The notes under the pieces were generated by a model, which saw only the letters and a program-made list of their open reading frames with translations, was not told where the DNA came from and did not search any database. From a virus: a stretch of 24,874 nucleotides of DNA. The position numbers and the translations under genes are program-made. The DNA lies in the IMG/VR virus record IMGVR_UViG_3300037427_001773, positions 1-24,874 of that record, one strand, 5' to 3'. The stretch's first letter is position 1. Each line of letters starts with the position of its first letter. This document shows, piece by piece, positions 2,130 through 21,118 of the stretch.

Positions 2130-2480
2130 GTGGGTTTAATAACGAAAAGCGTAAGCGATTTCTTCAAGAGCTCAGTGAGAACAAAATTGCCGCCAATCAA
2201 GGAAGAGAACATCGCGACGATACGAACACGGGCCGAGTACGCGAAGAGTCTGATCGAGGACTCAGCGTTTCAGGAAGTGTTTCAAGCGATGAACGAGCAA
2301 GTAGTACGGGAGATCGCATCAAGCAGCCCACTCGATCAAAAAGAACGGGACGTTTTGTATCTAAAGCTCAAGCTAATAACTGAAATTCAAGAAACGCTGA
2401 TGATGTTTATCAGCGAATATGAAACTGCCGCTTTGATTAACGAAGCGCAAGCCAACCATGAGGAAGCTAATTATGGCTGA
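2130..2480 (+). CDS. Small helical protein between portal and scaffold
   Basis: This 116-residue protein is mostly helical. Its central segment (about residues 33-60, with RAEYAKSLIEDSAFQEVFQ) resembles small proteins found beside portal genes in many tailed phages, which are of unknown function. The GTG start at 2130 is supported by AAGGAG at 2117-2122, seven bases upstream. Its end overlaps the scaffold start by 8 bases, so the two are probably translationally coupled. A second frame (ATG 2078, overlapping the portal stop) covers the same DNA; its basic, Ser/Arg-rich C-terminal half looks like an out-of-frame shadow. The product is a real protein with fair certainty; the role is unknown, possibly in head assembly. 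Confidence 0.7.
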   Translation: MGLITKSVSDFFKSSVRTKLPPIKEENIATIRTRAEYAKSLIEDSAFQEVFQAMNEQVVREIASSSPLDQKERDVLYLKLKLITEIQETLMMFISEYETAALINEAQANHEEANYG

Positions 2481-3462
2481 ACCAGATGTTTCCGCTGAGG
2501 TAGACCAACCGACATCCGCGCCGGAGTCTTCCCCTCAGACCTTTCGGGAACGAGCTCTTAATCGCCTAACAGAGGAGTCAAACGACCAACCCCAGGCTGA
2601 AGAAGAGTTAGACAACAATGCGGAGCCCTTATCGGAAGATACCGATTTAGATGAGGCAGACCAACTCGATGACACAGCAGAAGCTGATTCGGACTCAGAC
2701 GAGCAACCCGAAGAAGACGATGCACCGAGAGTCTTTACGATAGACGGTAATGAGTTCAGTGAAGATGACATCAGAAACCTTGTAGCAGATCGCCGCAAGT
2801 GGGATGTCGAATTCCGTAAACGAACTCAACAGACTGCAAAGCAAAAAAAGGATTATGAGCGCGGTTCCGCTGAACTGGCGGTACAGCAAAAGCTCATTAT
2901 GGATGCTGCGCAAGGCAATCTAGACCAACTGAAGCAAGTTGACCCGACTGGCCTATCACAGGATCAGTACGCGATGTATCAACAGAACCTGAAGCAAGCA
3001 CGAGACCAGAATGATCACTGGGCGAATATGTTTAGCCAGGCGAACCAAGGGCTTAAAGCGAAGTTCGATGAATTTCAAAAAGCCCAGGCTGATGAGTCGG
3101 TTGAAGTGCTAAGAGGCATCGAACCCCGATGGAATGAGAATTTCTATGGGGATCTTAAAGAGTTTGCAGTCGAAACAGGCCGCTATTCAGATGAAGAGTT
3201 TAAAGAAGTCGCTGACTGGAGAGTGATCGAAGGATTGATCGCTTTACGAGATGCGGAATCTGCCACTCAGAAGCTGGAGAAGGTCAAAGAATCTAAATCC
3301 AAACCGAGCCGAAGACGGCAGAGAGCAAGACAACGCAATCGCAACTCACAAGGACAATTCCAGAGTGCGCGTGATGCGGTGTTTGAGTCTCCAAATGCTA
3401 AAGGTGATGGTTCATTTCGAGCAATGATGGAGGCGAAGCTCAAAGCTGAACGAGGTTCATAA
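2473..3462 (+). CDS. Capsid scaffolding protein
   Basis: This 329-residue protein has the usual scaffold design and position, directly before the MCP. A long acidic, low-complexity N-terminal third (about residues 10-85, rich in Glu, Asp, Ser) is followed by a helical coiled-coil middle (about 110-200) and a strongly basic segment (about residues 275-295, RRRQRARQRNR). Scaffolds use a basic C-terminal patch to bind the capsid inner face; that role is inferred here. The ATG at 2473 is preferred because GAGGAAG at 2460-2466 lies six bases before it. An in-frame ATG at 2458 would add five residues but lacks a comparable site. The protein is expected to leave the procapsid or be degraded on DNA packaging. 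Confidence 0.8.
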   Translation: MAEPDVSAEVDQPTSAPESSPQTFRERALNRLTEESNDQPQAEEELDNNAEPLSEDTDLDEADQLDDTAEADSDSDEQPEEDDAPRVFTIDGNEFSEDDIRNLVADRRKWDVEFRKRTQQTAKQKKDYERGSAELAVQQKLIMDAAQGNLDQLKQVDPTGLSQDQYAMYQQNLKQARDQNDHWANMFSQANQGLKAKFDEFQKAQADESVEVLRGIEPRWNENFYGDLKEFAVETGRYSDEEFKEVADWRVIEGLIALRDAESATQKLEKVKESKSKPSRRRQRARQRNRNSQGQFQSARDAVFESPNAKGDGSFRAMMEAKLKAERGS

Positions 3463-3476
3463 TTTAAGGACTTTGT

Positions 3477-3792
3477 ATGGCTTTTCATACTTATACACAA
3501 ACCCGTCAAGCTGAAGACGTTCAGGACGAGATTTATCAAATCTCTCCGGTAGATAGCCCCGTGGCTAGCCTCAGCAAAACAATCAGAGCAACTGGTAAGC
3601 TCCACGAATGGTCAGAAGACCGTTTGAACTCAAGCGGTGCTAACGCCGCCGTGGAAGGAGCAGATGCCGGATCGGATACTTCGGTAGCGATCACAGCTCT
3701 GAACAACTACACCCAGATCATGACTAAGGTCGCCAAGATTACTGGCACTTTAGAAGCCGTAGATAAGTACGGCCGTGATTCTGAAATGGCCT
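3477..3792 (+). CDS. MCP exon 1
   Basis: Codes for residues 1-105 and the first base of codon 106. It ends in GGCCT; the terminal U is the base expected before a group I 5' splice site. If unspliced, the frame runs on for seven intron codons to a TAG at 3813-3815. Confidence 0.88.
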
Positions 3793-5161
3793 TAATTGAG
3801 AGGGTCGCCGCATAGCGATATGCGGGCAATAACTCTGTGAATTCAAAGGAACTCTCACTGAGACAACTTTGAGCCAAGCCCCGCCAGGGGAAGGTGCAAC
3901 GACTATCCGAAAGGAGTACAGCCAAGTGGCTGGAAGCGCAGAGGCACTCAAGCAAGTGCAAGACATAGTCTAATCTTCATAGTGATATGAAGCTGGTTAA
4001 AACCGGGTGTGAATTAACGACTCACACTGAATACAAATGATCAATTGGAACAGCGATATTCTGAGCTTGCGAAGGATATTGAGCTGGCAATTATGGGTAA
4101 GCCTGGAGGAAGTTTCCAGACAGCAACAGCGGGATCGTCGAGTGCTGCGAGAAAGTTCGCTGCCCTGGCAATTCAGCTTCAAGGAGGCCCTAACAACGCC
4201 ACTTTGATGCAAGATGCCACCTCAGATGACACATTATCGAAATTGGAAACATCCATGCTCGATGCACACCAAAATTGTCATGCAGTGGGCGGAAACCCAG
4301 ATACGCTGATGGTTCCCCCAGCGGTTTCTCGATACGTTGCAAGCTTTGCAGCGGCATCAGGACGCAACAGGGAGCTCCGAGATACTACTAAGATCGTCAA
4401 TAACGTAGACCTTTACGTTTCGCCTAAACATTGGGCCATTGCGGCGTGAGTCGCATTGCAAACTCCGTGAATTCAGGGAAAATCTCATTGAGACAATCCT
4501 GAGCCAAGCTCGAAAGAGAAGGTGCAGAGACTATTGCGAAAGCAAGTAGGGCTAAGTAGCCCGAAGCGCGGAGCATCCTTAGAGGATGATGATATAGTCC
4601 GGCCTAGTATGTGAATACTAGCGGCTGCTAAGAGCAGCGGGTATGAGCTAACGACTCATGCTGAACAGATCGTTTGGTGAACTTAACGTAGTTCAAGACC
4701 GAGAAATGGAACCGCTATCGATGGTTGGAATTGATTTCAACTACTCGGCTACAGCGGTACTAAGACCTACTCAAGATTTTGCCTTGAGTAAAACGGGTAA
4801 GCATTGCCCCCTAGTGGCGAAAGCCGCATAGGATAACTTTGTGAACTGCTGGAAACCCCAAACACATCATGGTGTGGGCAATCAGCAGCCAAGCCTGGAA
4901 ACAGGAAGGTTCAACGACCATCCCTACGGGGAGTACGGCCAAGCGGCTGGAAGCGCAAAGCACCCTTCGCGGGTGAAGATATGGTCTCGTCCTTGCAGAT
5001 AATGTAAGGCAGCACGATGAAGTGCGGGAACAGTCTAGCGAGCTGTTTTGAAGATTTTACCAATGGATGCAGAATCGAGACAAATCATCACTGAATTGTC
5101 TTACTGTCTCTTGAACCGGGATTCCGCGTTCAGAGTGCATACCGTAAGCGCAAGCTTATAA
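3477..5161 (+). CDS. Major capsid protein, split by three group I introns (join 3477-3792, 4040-4425, 4673-4798, 5066-5161)
   Basis: Spliced length is 924 nt, or 307 residues plus TAA. Continuous reading stops at 3813, 4447 and 4829, but joining at U|intron-G| boundaries restores family motifs across every junction: SEMA-YQLEQRYSELAKDIE at intron 1, LYVSP-FGELNVV at intron 2, LSKTG-DAESRQIITEL at intron 3. These match my recollection of SU10/DUF5309-type capsid proteins, where a SEIAYQLAKRGKEL-like helix, a VYVS-FG turn and an AKTGD turn occur in this order. The N-terminal part (HTYTQTRQAEDVQDEIY, then SPVDSP) is also typical. An RBS (AAGGA) lies just upstream of ATG 3477. Intron 1 splits codon 106 after its first base; introns 2 and 3 lie between codons 234/235 and 276/277. 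Functional capsid can be made only if all three introns are removed. The assignment is from sequence and family knowledge; splicing itself is inferred. Confidence 0.92.
3793..4039 (+). ncRNA. Group I intron 1 in the MCP gene (247 nt, no ORF)
   Basis: This is a self-splicing RNA candidate. P1 pairs exon bases 3787-3792 (UGGCCU) with 3802-3807 (GGGUCG), with the splice-site U3792 opposite G3802. P2 is CCGCAUA (3808-3814) with UAUGCGG (3819-3825) around a GCGA loop. The conserved core has GGUGCAAC, then P7 GACUAU (3901-3906) pairing with AUAGUC (3965-3970). P8 is AGCC-AAGU-GGCU (3920-3931). A 3'-domain hairpin is CUUCAU (3975-3980) with AUGAAG (3987-3992). The last base is G (4039), as expected for omega-G. 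There is no room for a homing endonuclease. Joining 3792 to 4040 restores a conserved Tyr codon (T+AT). The subclass was not assigned. Confidence 0.92.
4040..4425 (+). CDS. MCP exon 2
   Basis: Codes for the rest of codon 106 through Pro234. It includes the ELAKDIELAIMG helix, a Gly/Ser/Ala-rich loop and the NNVDLYVSP strand. A stand-alone reading from TTG 4045 would be misleading, since that codon lies inside the conserved YQLEQR motif. Unspliced, the frame enters the intron and stops at TGA 4447-4449. Confidence 0.88.
4426..4672 (+). ncRNA. Group I intron 2 in the MCP gene (247 nt, no ORF)
   Basis: A close relative of intron 1 and exactly the same length. P1 pairs exon GCCU (4422-4425) with GGGC (4433-4436), with U4425 opposite G4433. 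P7 is GACUAU (4529-4534) with AUAGUC (4594-4599). P8 is GGGCU-AAGU-AGCCC (4549-4562); it keeps the AAGU loop while the stem differs from intron 1 by compensating changes. The 3'-domain hairpin CUAGUAU (4604-4610) with AUACUAG (4615-4621) is followed by GCUGC/GCAGC. A terminal hairpin with a UAACGA loop is shared with intron 1. The last base is G4672. The stretch GTGAATTCA is shared with intron 1. No endonuclease ORF is present. Confidence 0.92.
4673..4798 (+). CDS. MCP exon 3
   Basis: A 42-codon exon for residues 235-276, from FGELNVVQDREMEPLSMVG through the core strand YSATAVLRPTQDFALSKTG. It has no start codon of its own and is invisible to ORF callers. Both ends are in phase 0. It ends in CGGGT, with U next to the predicted splice site. 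Confidence 0.87.
4799..5065 (+). ncRNA. Group I intron 3 in the MCP gene (267 nt, no ORF)
   Basis: The most divergent of the three copies. P1 pairs exon GGGU (4795-4798) with GCCC (4806-4809), with U4798 opposite G4806. P2 is GUGGC-GAAA-GCCGC (4814-4827). P7 is GACCAU (4916-4921) with AUGGUC (4981-4986); relative to introns 1 and 2 a U-A pair has become C-G on both sides. P8 is GGCC-AAGC-GGCU (4937-4948). The 3'-domain hairpins are CCUUGCA (4991-4997) with UGUAAGG (5003-5009), then GCAC/GUGC. An extra hairpin near 4857-4878 helps explain the longer length. The last base is G5065. No endonuclease ORF is present. Confidence 0.9.
5066..5161 (+). CDS. MCP exon 4
   Basis: A 31-codon terminal exon plus TAA. 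It begins DAESRQIITELSYCLLN, which completes the KTG-DAE turn from exon 3 and gives the C-terminal strand of the capsid fold. It is followed within ten bases by an intrinsic terminator. Too short and startless to be found as an ORF. Confidence 0.87.
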   Translation, partial: DAESRQIITELSYCLLNRDSAFRVHTVSASL

Positions 5162-5167
5162 CCCTTG

Positions 5168-5192
5168 AAGGGCTCTTCGGAGCCCTTTTTTA
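5168..5192 (+). terminator. Rho-independent terminator after the MCP gene
   Basis: A perfect stem GGGCUC-UUCG-GAGCCC (5170-5185), extended by AA/UU, with the very stable UUCG tetraloop, runs into six T residues. It starts seven bases after the MCP stop. It would separate abundant capsid mRNA from the downstream adaptor and tail genes, or let only part of the transcripts read through. Confidence 0.9.
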
Positions 5193-5203: not shown

Positions 5204-5548
5204 ATGACTGAGAAACGAATTATCTCCGCTACCGGGGATGTGTCGCGGTGGATTGCGTCCGAGCATGACAGCTCCGGTAAGCTGCAACACTATCGAGGCT
5301 ACAGCCAGGACGTTAAGCAAACGGCTGACCTGGTGAAGCAGCGAGCACAACAAATGCCTGGGCGATTCAGTAAATCGCTAGAGCATCAATATGTGGGCTC
5401 GGTGCCAATGACCATGATTCAGGATTTTGTCGCCAAGCGCGGTAAAACGATGAACGACTGGGCAACCGATAAGCACTTGAAGAAAGCATTTCTGTTGCAT
5501 ATGACGGCAGAAAACCCTCGATTGTTTGCTAAGAGCTATCAGACATGA
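5204..5548 (+). CDS. Small conserved-looking protein after the MCP, function unknown
   Basis: A 114-residue soluble, basic, mostly helical protein. The ATG at 5204 is preferred (GGAA at 5195-5198 upstream); an upstream TTG at 5165 would put the start inside the terminator hairpin. There is no signal peptide or membrane segment. The segment SVPMTMIQDFVAKRGKTMN suggests a helical fold. Its stop overlaps the next start (ATGA at 5545). The position between MCP and adaptor suggests a role in head completion or in the virion, but I recognise no family. Confidence 0.75.
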   Translation: MTEKRIISATGDVSRWIASEHDSSGKLQHYRGYSQDVKQTADLVKQRAQQMPGRFSKSLEHQYVGSVPMTMIQDFVAKRGKTMNDWATDKHLKKAFLLHMTAENPRLFAKSYQT

Positions 5549-6171
5549 CTTATGGGGTGCTCAAGACTGACCTGGCTGACTGGCTTAATCGATCAGACCT
5601 AACCTCGAAGCTGGATTCGTTCATTAAGAACGCTGAGAACACGATCTATCGAACGCTGAGTCATCGATTGTTAGAGAAAACAGCCACGTTTGATCGAACT
5701 AGCGAGTCTCCATTAACCGATGTCCTGGCATTACCGAGTGATTACCGGGAAGCGATCCTATTAACGGTCGATGGCACTCCGATCGAGCGAGTCTCACTGG
5801 ATTCTATTTCTAATCGAACAGCTAAGGTCGATGAGCCGAGTGAATTCTCAAGAAACGGAACCGATATACAGCTATGGCCTTTCCCTGATGCGGGACGGAC
5901 ATACAAATTAACCTATTATCACAAACCGGCCACTGTCACAGGTGGATCGGATAGCGGCACTAACGATCTGCTAACGGCAGAACCCGCACTATTTCTATAT
6001 GGCTCGCTAATCGAAGCCGAGCCCTACCTTCACAGTGATCAAATGCCCATGTTGCAAGTTTGGGCGAGTCGATTCGGTGAAATCCTAGCGACATTAGACC
6101 AGGAATCCTCTTTAGAGAACTATTCCGGCTCGACTGTCACCGTCAAATCAACATTCAGCGGGAGATTATAA
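5545..6171 (+). CDS. Head-tail adaptor protein (SU10-adaptor-like)
   Basis: This 208-residue protein has the features of the adaptor family seen in SU10-like and many other tailed phages. The N-terminal helical start (LADWLNRSDLTSKLDSFIK, then a segment like NAENTIYRTL) is followed by a beta segment with LPSDYREA, a Y-strand with KLTYYHKPA, and a C-terminal helix beginning around residue 148 (ALFLYGSLIEAEPYL). Such adaptors form a ring under the portal that joins the tail. It is coupled by ATGA overlap to the gene before it. An SU10-type adaptor next to an SU10-type MCP is mutually supporting. The family name is from memory of the motif pattern. Confidence 0.8.
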   Translation: MTYGVLKTDLADWLNRSDLTSKLDSFIKNAENTIYRTLSHRLLEKTATFDRTSESPLTDVLALPSDYREAILLTVDGTPIERVSLDSISNRTAKVDEPSEFSRNGTDIQLWPFPDAGRTYKLTYYHKPATVTGGSDSGTNDLLTAEPALFLYGSLIEAEPYLHSDQMPMLQVWASRFGEILATLDQESSLENYSGSTVTVKSTFSGRL

Positions 6172-9860: not shown

Positions 9861-11066
9861 ATGGCATTAACAAAAGCACCAGAAGAGTTAGTAGATAAAT
9901 CTTTAACTTCTACTTTAACTATCACTACTGCTGATAATAGCAATAATTTAGTTCTTGCTAGCACTGACGCTGATGCTAGTTTTGGCCCTCGTTTAAAGTT
10001 ATTTAGAAACTCAGCATCAGCAGCAGACGGTGATGCCATAGGGTACATTAATTTTACTGGTACAAATGATGCTGGAACACCAGAAGAGGTTGGTTATGCT
10101 GCTTTTGACGCAAGAATAGTAGATGCTTCGGACGGTACTGAAGATGGAAGACTAGAAATAGTTACGTTATTAGCTGGTGTAGAAGGTACTTCCAGAATTT
10201 TAATGGACGCTACTGAGACTGTCTTCAATGATAATTCTAAAGACCTAGATTTCCGTGTTGAGAGTGATGATCATGCACATGCTTTATTTGTTAACGGTGC
10301 AGCTGGAAACGTAGGAATAGGGGATACAGTACCAGCTTGGGGCGCAAATTACAGAGCTTTGACAATTGGCTCTTCTGGTGCTATTTGGTGTACTAAAACC
10401 GGAACAAGTCTTACAGCACTGGCTGACAACACTTATTTCAACGGGTCAAATCAGATCGCTCGGAACACGCAAGCGGCCGCTCAATATTATATGAACGCTG
10501 GTAGCCATGTTTGGGAAAACGCACCTTCTGTGAGTGCGGGCGCAACGCAAACAATGGCTGTTCGTATGGTGATAAACCCGTCAGGTCATATTACTATTGG
10601 ACGTACTGCAACCAGTAATACTGAATCAGATCACGGAATAGATTTATACGGAAATGGTTATATCTACCTATACTCAGCCGCTTCTGGAAATGATGACACT
10701 TTTAGATCCTATGACTCTTCAGGAGCACTCAAAGCATCTATTGAAGCAGACGGAGACTACATAGATCATTCTGATGAAAATTACAAAGAGAATATTACAG
10801 ATGCTTCTAGCGTCCTCAGTACTATTTCTGACATTAAAATCCGTAGTTTTACTTGGAAGGACAGTGGCCGTAAACAAAGTTACGGTTTTGTTGCCCAAGA
10901 GTTAAAAGACGTTGTTCCTGAAGCAACAAAAGTTGCAGAAAAAGAAGGAGATATGTGGGGCGTAAGAAACTCAAGAATAGTTCCAATGTTAGTCAAAGCA
11001 ATCCAAGAACAACAAACACTAATAGAAACCTTACAAACCAAAGTCAAAGCGTTAGAGGAGGCATAA
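9861..11066 (+). CDS. Tail fibre/spike with C-terminal S74 self-cleaving chaperone
   Basis: A 401-residue protein with RBS GGGAG before ATG 9861. The N-terminal half is beta-rich and contains the GNVGIGDTVP and AVRMVINPSGHITIG motifs common in marine phage fibres. The C-terminal ~98 residues are an intramolecular chaperone of the endosialidase/peptidase S74 type: HSDENYKENI carries the Ser304-Asp305 site and Lys309 of the Ser/Lys dyad, followed by IRSFTWKD, YGFVAQELKDVVPEA, and a terminal helix with VPMLVKAIQEQQ and a short coiled coil. In known members the domain drives trimerisation and then cuts itself off just before the Ser, which would leave a mature protein of about 303 residues. Cleavage here is inferred from the conserved residues. 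Confidence 0.88.
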   Translation: MALTKAPEELVDKSLTSTLTITTADNSNNLVLASTDADASFGPRLKLFRNSASAADGDAIGYINFTGTNDAGTPEEVGYAAFDARIVDASDGTEDGRLEIVTLLAGVEGTSRILMDATETVFNDNSKDLDFRVESDDHAHALFVNGAAGNVGIGDTVPAWGANYRALTIGSSGAIWCTKTGTSLTALADNTYFNGSNQIARNTQAAAQYYMNAGSHVWENAPSVSAGATQTMAVRMVINPSGHITIGRTATSNTESDHGIDLYGNGYIYLYSAASGNDDTFRSYDSSGALKASIEADGDYIDHSDENYKENITDASSVLSTISDIKIRSFTWKDSGRKQSYGFVAQELKDVVPEATKVAEKEGDMWGVRNSRIVPMLVKAIQEQQTLIETLQTKVKALEEA

Positions 11067-17209: not shown

Positions 17210-19256
17210 AAATGCACAAACAGATTTTGTGGAAGCAATGCGTAAGAAAGCGGATTCCTTAACACCAACCGAGTTAAAAGAATACCGAATTCAGGTAGCT
17301 AGAGAAAATCAAAGAAACCCAAGGAAAAAAAGCCAGCAGTTACTGGACTTTCTCAATCAATATATTCCTGAAAGAGAAGAGCGGTCGGGTGGTGAGTTTA
17401 TGGGAGGAGTTCGACAGCTTGCAAATGATGCGACGTTAGGTTTTTCCGATGAGGCTGAAGCGCGAGTCAGATCGCTTAATCCTTTTGGCCCGACCAAAGA
17501 TGAGCATCTGATGAACATACGCTCACAGATGAAACAATATGACGAGGATTATCCCGTTCATTCTGGAGTCTCTACCACATTAAGTATGGCAAGCCCTGCT
17601 ATGCTCGGCAAGACACTAGTGAAACGAGGTTTGCCAGAAGCAAAAAGGTTATTAAGTGCTGTGCCAGATCAGGTTGCTGATACATACAACCAATTACGCC
17701 GGGCATACGGAACATACGAAGATTCCTCTACGGTTGGCAGAGGAGGGCGGCTACTTGGGACAGGTGGAACGATGGGCGCGGTGAGTGGTTACGGTTACAG
17801 CGAGGCTGAAGACCCTGATCAACAGGCGATGGATGCTGGTATGGGATTTATGGTGGGTGGAGCACTTACCCCATTGATGGGAGTAGGACTACCAGCCTTA
17901 TACAACGTCGGAAAAGAGATGTGGCGAAGAGCTTCAAGAACGCCAAGGCAGCGAGCAGATGAGGTGTTAGGGGATGTGTTAGCAGCAGAGCCTTTAGACG
18001 AAAACATGGCCCCGGAAGGTGTATTGATGGATCAGTCGGCCTCATTACAAAAACTGGCTACAGAAGTAGCTGGTAAAGATCGAGCGGCTGGTGGTCGAAT
18101 GACTTCTTTGACTGTGCCAAGACAAGCTGGTGCAAAAGAGAGAGTTGTAGATGCGTTAAAGGATTCTACTGGGTTCACAGGACAGGAATATCGACCCTGG
18201 GCAAGACGAGCTGAAACAATAAGAAAAACGGTAGCGAAAGAAAAGTTTGAGGTTGTCGGGCCAGCTCCAATAGAAGTAACGCCAAAGCTGAAGTTTTTAT
18301 TAACTAGTAATTTTGTAGAACGCAAAACTAAAAATGCGATAGATGCTGCTGTTGTCAAAGACGGAGGGCTTCCGCAAAACAGAGCATTTGAGTTAGGGCA
18401 GGGAGAGACCATAGGCGAATGGTTAGAGGATGTTAAGCCGACTGCTGGTTTTTATGAGGATGTGGCGTTCCAGCTTCGGGACGATTTACAAAAAGCAGTA
18501 GCTAGAAGTGAAGAAAAAGCGGCCGCTGATATTAGGGGTGTTCTTCAGCAGCTTTATAAAGAAATAGATGATCAGGTTCCAGAATACGCAAGCACCAGAA
18601 AGATATTAGAAAAGTACCATCGAGCAGAAGATGCTGGCGATCTGGGTTCGTCAATGATGCGGAGATACAACACTCGCCTTGATGATGCTCTCGATGAATT
18701 TGACGCAATGACTTTAGAGCAACGTGAAGCCGCTAGAAGAGGGGTTGCTTATAGCGTCAAACAGAATCTTGATCGAACTCCAAGAACAGGAGACTTTGGG
18801 AAGTTAGGGAAAACTGAAGAGAAAGTGGGTGCGCTACAACAATTATCCAGACCTGGAAAGCGAGAAATACTGACCGACAGGTTAGAGCAAGAATCCAAAA
18901 TGCACGAAACTGGAAACCTTGTAAGCGCAGCTAGAGGATCAAGAACCATGTTTGGCAATAGAAGTGAAGAAAGTAGAACGCCAACGCAATGGTTTATGGA
19001 TTCGCTAACTAGATACTTAGGCCCAGAAGCAGCCAACGAAGTAGCAATTACCTTAACAAGACGCTTGCCCAGAGAGGACGTTACTAGATTAATTAACGGT
19101 GCATTGCCCCCAGAGAGGGTTCTGCCAACCGTAGAACAGATTGCGAATTCTTCTGGTATATCAGTAGCGTTAGCTCAAAGAGTAATCGAAAACCTTGCTT
19201 ATGATAATTCAGCGGTTAGAGAATCAACAGGAAGGTTAAGTGGGGCATCTGAATAA
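17199..19256 (+). CDS. Large ejection (internal virion) protein candidate with membrane-active Gly-rich segments
   Basis: A 685-residue protein. The GTG at 17199 is chosen because GGGAGG (17185-17190) lies eight bases before it; an in-frame GTG at 17190 overlaps that site. The pattern after residue 60 (GGVRQLANDATLGFSDEAEA, then DYPVHSGVSTTLSMASPAML) recalls internal virion proteins I have seen in phage late regions. A Gly/Ala/Met-rich hydrophobic stretch (about residues 198-242, GMGFMVGGALTPLMGVGLPA) may insert into membranes during DNA entry. The C-terminal half is helical and highly charged. Its stop overlaps the next start (TAATG). Confidence 0.65.
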   Translation: MASENAQTDFVEAMRKKADSLTPTELKEYRIQVARENQRNPRKKSQQLLDFLNQYIPEREERSGGEFMGGVRQLANDATLGFSDEAEARVRSLNPFGPTKDEHLMNIRSQMKQYDEDYPVHSGVSTTLSMASPAMLGKTLVKRGLPEAKRLLSAVPDQVADTYNQLRRAYGTYEDSSTVGRGGRLLGTGGTMGAVSGYGYSEAEDPDQQAMDAGMGFMVGGALTPLMGVGLPALYNVGKEMWRRASRTPRQRADEVLGDVLAAEPLDENMAPEGVLMDQSASLQKLATEVAGKDRAAGGRMTSLTVPRQAGAKERVVDALKDSTGFTGQEYRPWARRAETIRKTVAKEKFEVVGPAPIEVTPKLKFLLTSNFVERKTKNAIDAAVVKDGGLPQNRAFELGQGETIGEWLEDVKPTAGFYEDVAFQLRDDLQKAVARSEEKAAADIRGVLQQLYKEIDDQVPEYASTRKILEKYHRAEDAGDLGSSMMRRYNTRLDDALDEFDAMTLEQREAARRGVAYSVKQNLDRTPRTGDFGKLGKTEEKVGALQQLSRPGKREILTDRLEQESKMHETGNLVSAARGSRTMFGNRSEESRTPTQWFMDSLTRYLGPEAANEVAITLTRRLPREDVTRLINGALPPERVLPTVEQIANSSGISVALAQRVIENLAYDNSAVRESTGRLSGASE

Positions 19257-21118
19257 TGGCACAATACCTCGAATACATCGGAGCTCTATCTCCCCGTAAA
19301 GGCGTAGGCCCGGCTTTAATCTACCCAGGCTACAAAACCAAACAAGCCCCTGGTGCATTTAACCGTGGTCAAGACTCTTTAGGTGAGGGGGTATTAGGCG
19401 CGTTATCAGGTGGGGGCGGTGGTGGCGGTGGTGACGATGAAGATGTTGTAGATGACGACGATGTAGTAGTTGTAGACGATGAAGATGTTGTAGATGACGA
19501 CGATGATGTAGTAGTTGTAGATGATCCACCACCAGTAGTTGATGATCCTCCACCCACAGATACTGACCCTGGTGTTTTAATCACTCCAACCAAAAAACCA
19601 CCCAACGATGGTAATCAAATAACCTGGTTAGACGAGCTCCCTAAAACAGGTCAAAACATCGCTATAAAAATGCTTGAGATGAATCCTGATGCTGATGTTT
19701 CTAAAGACAGAATTTTGGCAGAGTTTTATTACGATGGACAAGCAAATAGCAGACGTATTTCTGAGTTTTATCGGAACTATTACAATTGGCGGCGTGACAA
19801 AGCGATTGAAAAGTCAAAAAACAAATCAGACAGTTCATCAACAGTTTCAACAAACCTAACTGAGCAGCCAGACGGTACAGTTAGACCGGGTGCAGATCAG
19901 CCTAAAATCACTGATACTTCCAATACTTCGACTACTTCGAGCACTTCCGATACTTCGAGCACTTCCGATACTTCGAGCAATACCAATTCAGGTAGTAATC
20001 CAGTGATCAATGCTGGATCCACCACACAACAACCATCAGGAAAGCCTGGTGTTCTCAATCCAAGCTCAACGTCAGATAGCGAAGATGACAAAAAAAGCGA
20101 TGGCGAACTGAGCGAAGAAGTCCAAGAAGTGCTAAGAGACCTTGGGGTTCTGGATGCAGCGGGAGTCTGGACAAAACCAGACATAACAGTCGATATTGGG
20201 GCCAATGGTGAGCCGCAAATACTCATCAACGGTAAGACGGTCGATAAAACCGTAATCGATGCAATCAAAAATCAATTCCCCGACATCATCAGAAACTCAC
20301 CGGCAGCAAAGCATCTGCCGAGTGGAGATACTCATCTAAAGATGGGTGGCGAGGGTGGAATTCTCGACACAGGCGTAGGAGTCGCAGTGCCTGTTGATAC
20401 CAGTAAAGAAGGTATATCCGGCGACCCCGTAATCTACAAAGATGTTTCGGCTGGCGATGTTGAAGATTTCAGGCGAAACCCATTGTGGTGGCTGCGAAGC
20501 CGCGCCACACAAGCTGGCAGAAGCGCACGGGACATATGGAATGATGTGAAAGATCGGCTTGGTCTTTCCGATGAAGAGAAAGAGGCGTTAGAAGCGAGTG
20601 ATCAGATCGATGGCACTCAAATCACTGGTGGCTATGCCGGGTATACATCAACTGATCCAACCTCTGTGACGGGGGGCGATTCTTTTAGTGGGGGTTGGTA
20701 CGAAAATCCTTTAGGGACAGGCGAGCCGGATTTTTACACGCCAGAGAGGGGTACTCGATATGGTAGAGCAACTTCGCCCCTGGCAGACTTTGGCATTAAA
20801 GAGGGTCGCGGCCTACCGTACTCAAAATTTCCTGTCGATGGTGGACAATCATCAGTTTACGGCGAAGTCCTGATCGACAAGATGCAACCTCATGGGAACA
20901 CGCTCACAAGTGAAGTAGATCGAATGGTCGCTGAAAGCCTACCGTTTGTCTCAGTGACTGGCCCAGATGGAACCCCGATGATGTACGACAAACAGACCGG
21001 GCAGACTCTTTCATTACCTGAATATGGTGCTTTAGTGAAAAGCCGAAACACCATCGGATTGCCGCCAGGCGTGAATCAGATACCAGGGCGATTGCCGTCC
21101 TATCGAGGTTATGGTTAA
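19256..21118 (+). CDS. Large virion protein with Gly8 and Asp/Val low-complexity region
   Basis: A 620-residue protein. After ~50 ordinary residues comes a run of eight Gly, then a striking Asp/Val-rich segment (about residues 60-90), then a Pro/Asp linker (PPPVVDDPPPTDTDPG). A second low-complexity region (about residues 220-245) is a Thr/Ser repeat, (ST)SDTSS-like. Globular parts lie between and after them: ITWLDELPKTGQNIAIKMLE and, near 285-350, EEVQEVLRDLGVLDAAGVW. The C-terminal ~200 residues, with a GYTSTDPTSVTGGDSFSGGW segment, may be a separate domain. No family is recognised. The position between two probable ejection proteins suggests a virion component. It joins its neighbours by TAATG overlaps at both ends. 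Confidence 0.6.
   Translation: MAQYLEYIGALSPRKGVGPALIYPGYKTKQAPGAFNRGQDSLGEGVLGALSGGGGGGGGDDEDVVDDDDVVVVDDEDVVDDDDDVVVVDDPPPVVDDPPPTDTDPGVLITPTKKPPNDGNQITWLDELPKTGQNIAIKMLEMNPDADVSKDRILAEFYYDGQANSRRISEFYRNYYNWRRDKAIEKSKNKSDSSSTVSTNLTEQPDGTVRPGADQPKITDTSNTSTTSSTSDTSSTSDTSSNTNSGSNPVINAGSTTQQPSGKPGVLNPSSTSDSEDDKKSDGELSEEVQEVLRDLGVLDAAGVWTKPDITVDIGANGEPQILINGKTVDKTVIDAIKNQFPDIIRNSPAAKHLPSGDTHLKMGGEGGILDTGVGVAVPVDTSKEGISGDPVIYKDVSAGDVEDFRRNPLWWLRSRATQAGRSARDIWNDVKDRLGLSDEEKEALEASDQIDGTQITGGYAGYTSTDPTSVTGGDSFSGGWYENPLGTGEPDFYTPERGTRYGRATSPLADFGIKEGRGLPYSKFPVDGGQSSVYGEVLIDKMQPHGNTLTSEVDRMVAESLPFVSVTGPDGTPMMYDKQTGQTLSLPEYGALVKSRNTIGLPPGVNQIPGRLPSYRGYG
19433..19519 (+). repeat. Tandem direct repeat encoding an Asp/Val-rich segment (42 + 45 bp)
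   Basis: Unit 1 (19433-19474) encodes DDEDVVDDDDVVVV. Unit 2 (19475-19519) is the same except for one added GAT codon, giving DDEDVVDDDDDVVVV. The near identity at DNA level, including third positions, implies a recent duplication plus a one-codon slippage. Confidence 0.9.
19914..19979 (+). repeat. Short tandem Thr/Ser-codon repeat
   Basis: ACTTCGAGCACTTCCGAT-like 18-bp units repeat at least twice, inside a longer array of ACTTC-type units encoding TSSTSD. It is a disordered linker in the protein and a likely slippage site. Confidence 0.8.

Follow-up and report, generated by a model that had tools for sequence, protein, structure and literature searches.

Three predicted group I introns without endonuclease genes interrupt the SU10-type major capsid gene of a phage

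The DNA analysed here, hereafter the window, is the whole 24,874-nucleotide virus record IMGVR_UViG_3300037427_001773 of the IMG/VR database. Between positions 3477 and 5161 its forward strand carries a major capsid gene in four exons: exon 1 at 3477–3792 (316 nt; codons 1–105 plus the first base of Tyr106), exon 2 at 4040–4425 (386 nt), exon 3 at 4673–4798 (126 nt) and exon 4 at 5066–5161 (96 nt including the stop codon). The exons are separated by three intervals on the same strand that we read as group I introns: intron 1 (3793–4039, 247 nt), which follows the first base of the Tyr codon in EMA-Y-QLE and ends in G; intron 2 (4426–4672, 247 nt), between VSP and FGEL; and intron 3 (4799–5065, 267 nt), between TG and DAES. 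A preliminary description of this DNA had claimed that removing these intervals gives a continuous capsid protein of 307 amino acids, and this is what we obtained, the joined exons forming a 924-nt frame of 307 codons plus a stop codon ending at 5161. The comparison with SU10 capsids proposed in the same description gave a nearly full-length match of the spliced protein to the Pfam profile SU10_MCP (PF17236, residues 7–301, E = 5.7e-66), and the protein also matches the PHROG family phrog_1328, ‘major head protein’ (4e-61).

We searched both strands of the window with the Rfam models (cmscan, gathering threshold; gathering score 50 for RF00028). All three intervals, previously assigned to group I introns from the letters alone, are matched by the group I model RF00028 above its gathering score, at 3783–3992 for intron 1 (78.8 bits, 9.2e-19), 4416–4621 for intron 2 (91.3 bits, 1.6e-22) and 4763–5009 for intron 3 (74.0 bits, 2.5e-17). 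No other Rfam family exceeded the threshold in the 24,874 bases.

Related capsid genes lack the intervals. The closely similar locus L004 encodes a 307-amino-acid capsid protein without interruption (84.4% amino acid and 69.5% nucleotide identity to the window), and the alignment of the two proteins is ungapped across all three junctions. The genes of further loci (L005–L014; 50–57% identity to the window capsid) are likewise uninterrupted and without RF00028 match. The residues of the intervals are thus not part of a longer capsid protein; the contrary outcome envisaged beforehand, the same residues within a longer intact protein, was not seen among these relatives, which are intact and of the same length. 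Codon differences between the window and L004 number 55 synonymous to 17 nonsynonymous in exon 1, 71 to 15 in exon 2, 24 to 6 in exon 3 and 15 to 10 in exon 4, suggesting that the joined frame is under selection, which we take as support for a spliced gene. The same three introns recur in two further contigs, L015 and L016, whose nucleotides are 100% identical to the window over stretches of 6,224 and 8,798 bases.

The exact junctions were ranked with a profile of eight relatives from which the window protein was left out, allowing any T before the donor and any G before the acceptor, the preceding introns being taken out at their previously proposed coordinates before the next was tested. For introns 1–3, the junctions given above rank first of 893, 780 and 818 candidates, with leads of 11.7, 4.8 and 5.2 bits over the next candidate. 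Profiles including the spliced protein of the window, which are not independent, gave the same junctions for introns 1 and 3 and, in a broader version, 4426–4672 for intron 2. A U at the end of the 5′ exon and a G as last intron base are found in all three introns; note that T and G were imposed in the searches, and that the resulting junctions are the gapless ones with respect to L004. The earlier claim of U|..G| junctions that restore conserved motifs at the three joins is thereby borne out. For intron 2, an alternative at 4419–4668 was picked initially, when P1 length weighed in; it has a P1 of 7 bp and lies at a site, DLYV-S, used in seven other loci. It was rejected because it deletes a conserved Pro, because it scores 4.8–5.0 bits below 4426–4672 with two profiles lacking the window protein, and because 4426–4672 has the same P1 letters (CGCC-U/GGGC) as the first intron in the capsid gene of L097.

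The intervals also behave as structured RNAs. None of 200 shuffles of each intron folds as well as the native sequence (z = −3.65, −3.56 and −2.98 for introns 1–3). We aligned 37 introns of SU10-type capsid loci, including those of the window (36 distinct rows), and found 96.3% standard pairs at 37 core pairs versus 70.5% in shuffles, with both-side changes in 30 of the 37; this alignment, which covers P3, P4, P5, P6 and P8, was fitted to the model and therefore somewhat favours the structure. When the structures are shifted by 1 to 3 columns, pairing drops to 34–47%. P7, the guanosine site, lies outside this count and displays a compensatory change between intron 3 and introns 1 and 2: its 5′ strand reads GACUA at 3901–3905 in intron 1 (pairing with UAGUC at 3966–3970) and at 4529–4533 in intron 2 (pairing with UAGUC at 4595–4599), and GACCA at 4916–4920 in intron 3 (pairing with UGGUC at 4982–4986), all on the forward strand. 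Subgroup IA is defined by extra hairpins, P7.1 and P7.2, between P7 and P3. Such hairpins are present in all three predicted folds, the corresponding helices 6 and 7 of the alignment covary, and by these features the three introns look like members of subgroup IA.

Taken together, these data make it highly probable that the SU10-type capsid gene at 3477–5161 is interrupted by three endonuclease-free, IA-type group I introns and that splicing restores the protein of 307 amino acids. Each intron would fold into a P3–P8/P4–P6 core with P7.1/P7.2 and P9 hairpins, and the end of the upstream exon would pair with an internal guide to form P1, with a U.G pair at the 5′ splice site, as in GGG-U/GCCC of intron 3. 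Guanosine would then attack the 5′ splice site, and the freed exon would attack behind the last G of the intron, assisted by P10 pairing to the next exon (GCAUU/GAUGC in intron 3). Three such reactions on the late transcript would restore the capsid frame. We infer from the sequence that the introns splice in infected cells, independently of cofactors and efficiently enough for capsid production, which can soundly be expected to depend on all three splicing events.

Several observations weigh against this interpretation. The pairings at the splice sites are short, P1 comprising 6, 4 and 4 bp and P10 7, 3 and 5 bp in introns 1–3, so that P1 reaches only 4 bp in introns 2 and 3 and P10 only 3 bp in intron 2. 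A P1 of 6 bp is attained by 6.4% of random T positions in the window and one of 4 bp by 36%; P1 alone therefore says little in favour of introns 2 and 3. The predicted fold of intron 2 lacks P1, the end of exon 2 being paired there with the start of exon 3. Since GCCU closes exon 1 as well as exon 2, and a GGG guide is available in each of introns 1 and 2, exon skipping is conceivable; this would break the frame. Exon 4, with its 15 synonymous and 10 nonsynonymous differences, is the least constrained exon.

The short P1 helices of introns 2 and 3 and the missing P1 in the fold of intron 2 are also what decayed, poorly splicing group I introns could leave behind, in which case the capsid gene would be a pseudogene or a second intact copy would serve the phage, for which the incomplete contig leaves room. 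We consider this very unlikely, as the exons are open and change mainly synonymously, all three intron scores clear the family threshold by a wide margin, the introns fall within a covarying set, and the same region is identical in two further contigs. A gene split into several frames would equally be expected if translational bypassing, programmed frameshifts or inteins restored the protein in place of RNA splicing. Inteins are excluded, since the intervals hold stops in all three frames, and bypassing would have no need of intervals that match the group I model with a covarying structure; this whole class of explanations is scarcely credible. A metagenome assembly error that placed intron-like sequence of other phages inside the capsid gene is exceedingly improbable even for a virus record of unknown completeness, given junctions that are exact and in frame and the two identical IMG/VR contigs, unless all three come from one assembly.

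The intron-bearing capsid gene of the window is one of several. Four of 47 IMG/VR capsid loci found by capsid motifs hold introns according to model R1, two being near-identical to the window and the others carrying two (L187) and three introns (L188). When the intron core alone was used as query, 19 of the 120 loci among the matches listed are SU10-type capsid genes split at the intron, with four introns in L021 and three in L040. The placement table comprises 21 resolved SU10-type loci including the window, with 35 introns at 13 sites; L072, whose first intron is not placeable, was excluded. The 21 loci represent fewer lineages, as they contain near-copies (L041/L100, L026/L049 and L027/L054). 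P1 and homology guided the manual placement of the third intron of L021, and the second junction of L021 and the first of L119 were chosen among near-equal solutions. The site of intron 1 is occupied in 11 of the 21 loci and another site in 7, and within this set the exact sites of introns 2 and 3 are used only in the window, L021 having an intron one base from that of intron 2. Up to six introns per gene are found in a further capsid family (see below). The preliminary description had regarded three introns without ORFs in one capsid gene as rare, a view that needs revision: in IMG/VR, two to six such introns occur in several phage capsid genes, some related to that of the window and some not.

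The shared Tyr codon offers a way to ask how often a site was entered. The group of 11 introns at this codon was defined by insertion site and listed before any tree was computed, and a single origin of the group is rejected by the approximately unbiased (AU) test (p = 0.009), with the caution that the set contains long branches. Different introns thus appear, from the sequences, to have entered the same capsid codon independently. Within the window, intron 3 belongs to a supported set of eight rows that excludes introns 1 and 2; forcing introns 1, 2 and 3 together (AU p = 0.42), or introns 1 and 2 (p = 0.50), is not rejected.

Capsid genes of other families also adjoin introns found by the same scan. 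Among the other 101 intron-core loci, 100 were searched with the model, 98 have an intron core and 91 a usable flanking exon. Forty-four of these 91 exons belong to clusters represented by an exon with a match to a PHROG ‘major head protein’; the representatives were checked individually, and a scan of all 91 exons, from which L124 was counted, gave 26 matches to phrog_1357 and 11 to phrog_267. With the 19 SU10-type loci added, 63 of the 120 loci among the matches listed in this blind scan adjoin a capsid exon (53 of 104 after merging near-copies), adjoining meaning that the intron borders a capsid exon, the exact site being resolved for some loci only. The most introns per gene seen here are in L101 (3637–5882), with six RF00028 matches in one major head protein gene of the phrog_1357 type. 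Taking out five of them leaves 377 residues that align gaplessly with L078 (90.5%) and L079 (88.9%). The remaining one, whose junction was placed by eye, follows codon 4, at a point where the frame of L060 continues uninterrupted. The introns of L060 itself were resolved in part, the third and fourth junctions excepted.

As a control we scanned with a motif from a different part of the intron, one that the window does not contain; 100 of 120 stretches were examined and yielded 68 intron cores with 65 usable exons. Four of these exons match phrog_1328 and three phrog_1357 (the overlap of the two counts is not specified), and one control locus, L357, shares 79% identity with one of the capsid exons from the first scan, so that about 8 of 65 are capsid exons in all; reductase (4), tape-measure (4) and RNA polymerase (3) exons also occur. 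The capsid share in the control is far lower. Capsid genes are therefore frequent hosts, but the strong enrichment, with the majority seen in the first scan, comes from this intron lineage or from the scan pattern and does not extend to phage group I introns in general. DNA similar to the window introns is found in phage isolates, among them Twort and SPbeta-type bnrdE records. No capsid gene is named among the 90 isolate matches listed (30 each of 154, 141 and 159 records for the three introns); these name polymerases, terL, reductase, thymidylate synthase, helicase, endonucleases and the Twort tail tube, and many are unannotated or hypothetical.

No endonuclease gene is present within the introns. 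The longest stop-free stretches on either strand are 61, 59 and 81 codons in introns 1–3, in line with the earlier statement that they hold no open reading frames, and 90 codons among 35 capsid introns of 241–308 nt. A search for GIY-YIG and HNH_3 domains, the two endonuclease families looked for, found none in the window contig or in five related records; any of these six may be fragmentary. Homing introns in the sense of an endonuclease gene inside the intron are thus not what we observe. The window introns nevertheless appear to be mobile elements that entered conserved capsid codons. As a speculative and rather doubtful proposal, phage major capsid genes could be repeated landing sites for an endonuclease-free group I lineage that moves through RNA, by reverse splicing into the late transcript that is most abundant and copying back to DNA. 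If true, this route would explain why several capsid families are hit, why a gene can hold up to six introns, how the same codon is entered independently and why homing genes are lacking. As a separate observation, a single contig, L017 (1879–11082), contains four group I intron cores next to exons for terminase, portal and DUF3383; an HNH gene (10110–10757) lies between the last two cores.

Introns of this kind affect annotation. In the SU10-type capsid gene of phage C72C1 (OQ984150.1, L402, 8530–9731), RF00028 matches one intron with 81.8 bits; its junction, read by eye, falls at the Tyr codon that intron 1 of the window interrupts. The intron is unannotated and the gene is given as two ‘major head protein’ fragments, just as the preliminary description had predicted of annotation tools; three antisense open reading frames (ORFs), which look spurious, are annotated across the intron and into exon 2. 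SU10-type matches were listed for 300 phage records; the 40 best and 60 spread rows are single-piece matches, C72C1 being the one among these that stops at the intron-1 site; nine of the 300 cover less than 80% of the protein, two of which were viewed, including C72C1. The annotation of cyanophage S-EIVl (KJ410740.1, 60784–62010; L403) looks mistaken where it has an antisense ORF and a partial sense ORF in place of the capsid frame homologous to that of L101. Splitting of capsid genes by annotation would bias surveys in which this gene serves as the marker.

The genes around the capsid gene, all on the forward strand, fit the SU10-type assignment. Upstream lie an SU10-type portal protein gene (18–2081; Pfam SU10_portal, 3.8e-113; start uncertain at the contig edge) and, directly before the capsid gene, a head scaffolding protein gene (2458–3462; phrog_3927, 7.2e-11); downstream lies an SU10-type adaptor protein gene (5545–6171; Pfam SU10_adaptor, 6e-26). 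Just past the capsid stop codon, at 5170–5191, a GC hairpin followed by six T was seen by eye, likely a transcription terminator that would close the capsid transcript. Elsewhere in the window, the product of 9861–11066 has a C-terminus that resembles, by eye, the S74-type chaperone/peptidase domain of tail fibres, and the ORF at 19256–21118 has long Asp/Val-rich runs close to its N-terminus.

The kind of intron described here is known; what would surprise a specialist is how many occur in a single capsid gene and that the same codons were entered repeatedly. In the literature covered, which excludes most subscription journals, we found no phage major capsid gene described with more than one group I intron, and no account of the pattern of capsid-gene invasion. 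As capsid protein is made in large amounts, a capsid gene spliced three to six times offers a test of the efficiency and order of bacterial group I splicing, and re-entry of the same codon without homing genes makes intron movement directly testable.

Several known systems share parts of this arrangement. Phage Twort is said to carry three group I introns in one gene, with exon skipping reported according to a title. It thus resembles the window in having three introns in one phage gene and differs in that the gene is not the capsid gene; Twort DNA is similar to intron 2 of the window (72% over 44% of the intron), the feature being named ‘tail tube protein’ in one record. The capsid gene of Faustovirus E12 is reported to contain several group I introns (5 of 12 introns), in a giant virus of amoebae and with introns of mixed types and 396–3,256 bp, in contrast to the phage introns of 247–267 nt described here (PMC6247863). 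The Jug phages, huge gut phages, have on average 18.5 small group I introns per genome, with splicing supported by metatranscriptomes for 37 of 76, so that phage introns at high density do splice in nature; the split genes named in the part of the paper available are terL, nrdD and DNA polymerase, not capsid (PMC12363816). Lactococcal phage Tuc2009, like the window, has a group I intron in a capsid gene, that of a capsid subunit (as cited in PMC3706429). That source also describes, in the major capsid gene of the Cluster J mycobacteriophage LittleE, an intron that is most likely group I and whose splicing was shown by reverse-transcription PCR and N-terminal sequencing (PMC3706429). LittleE, like the window, has a U before the intron and a G at its end, but only one insertion, which is 819 bp long and carries a putative homing endonuclease (PMC3706429), whereas the window has three of 247–267 nt with none. 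C72C1 shares with the window the intron at the Tyr codon of an SU10-type capsid gene, and differs in having one intron where the window has three.
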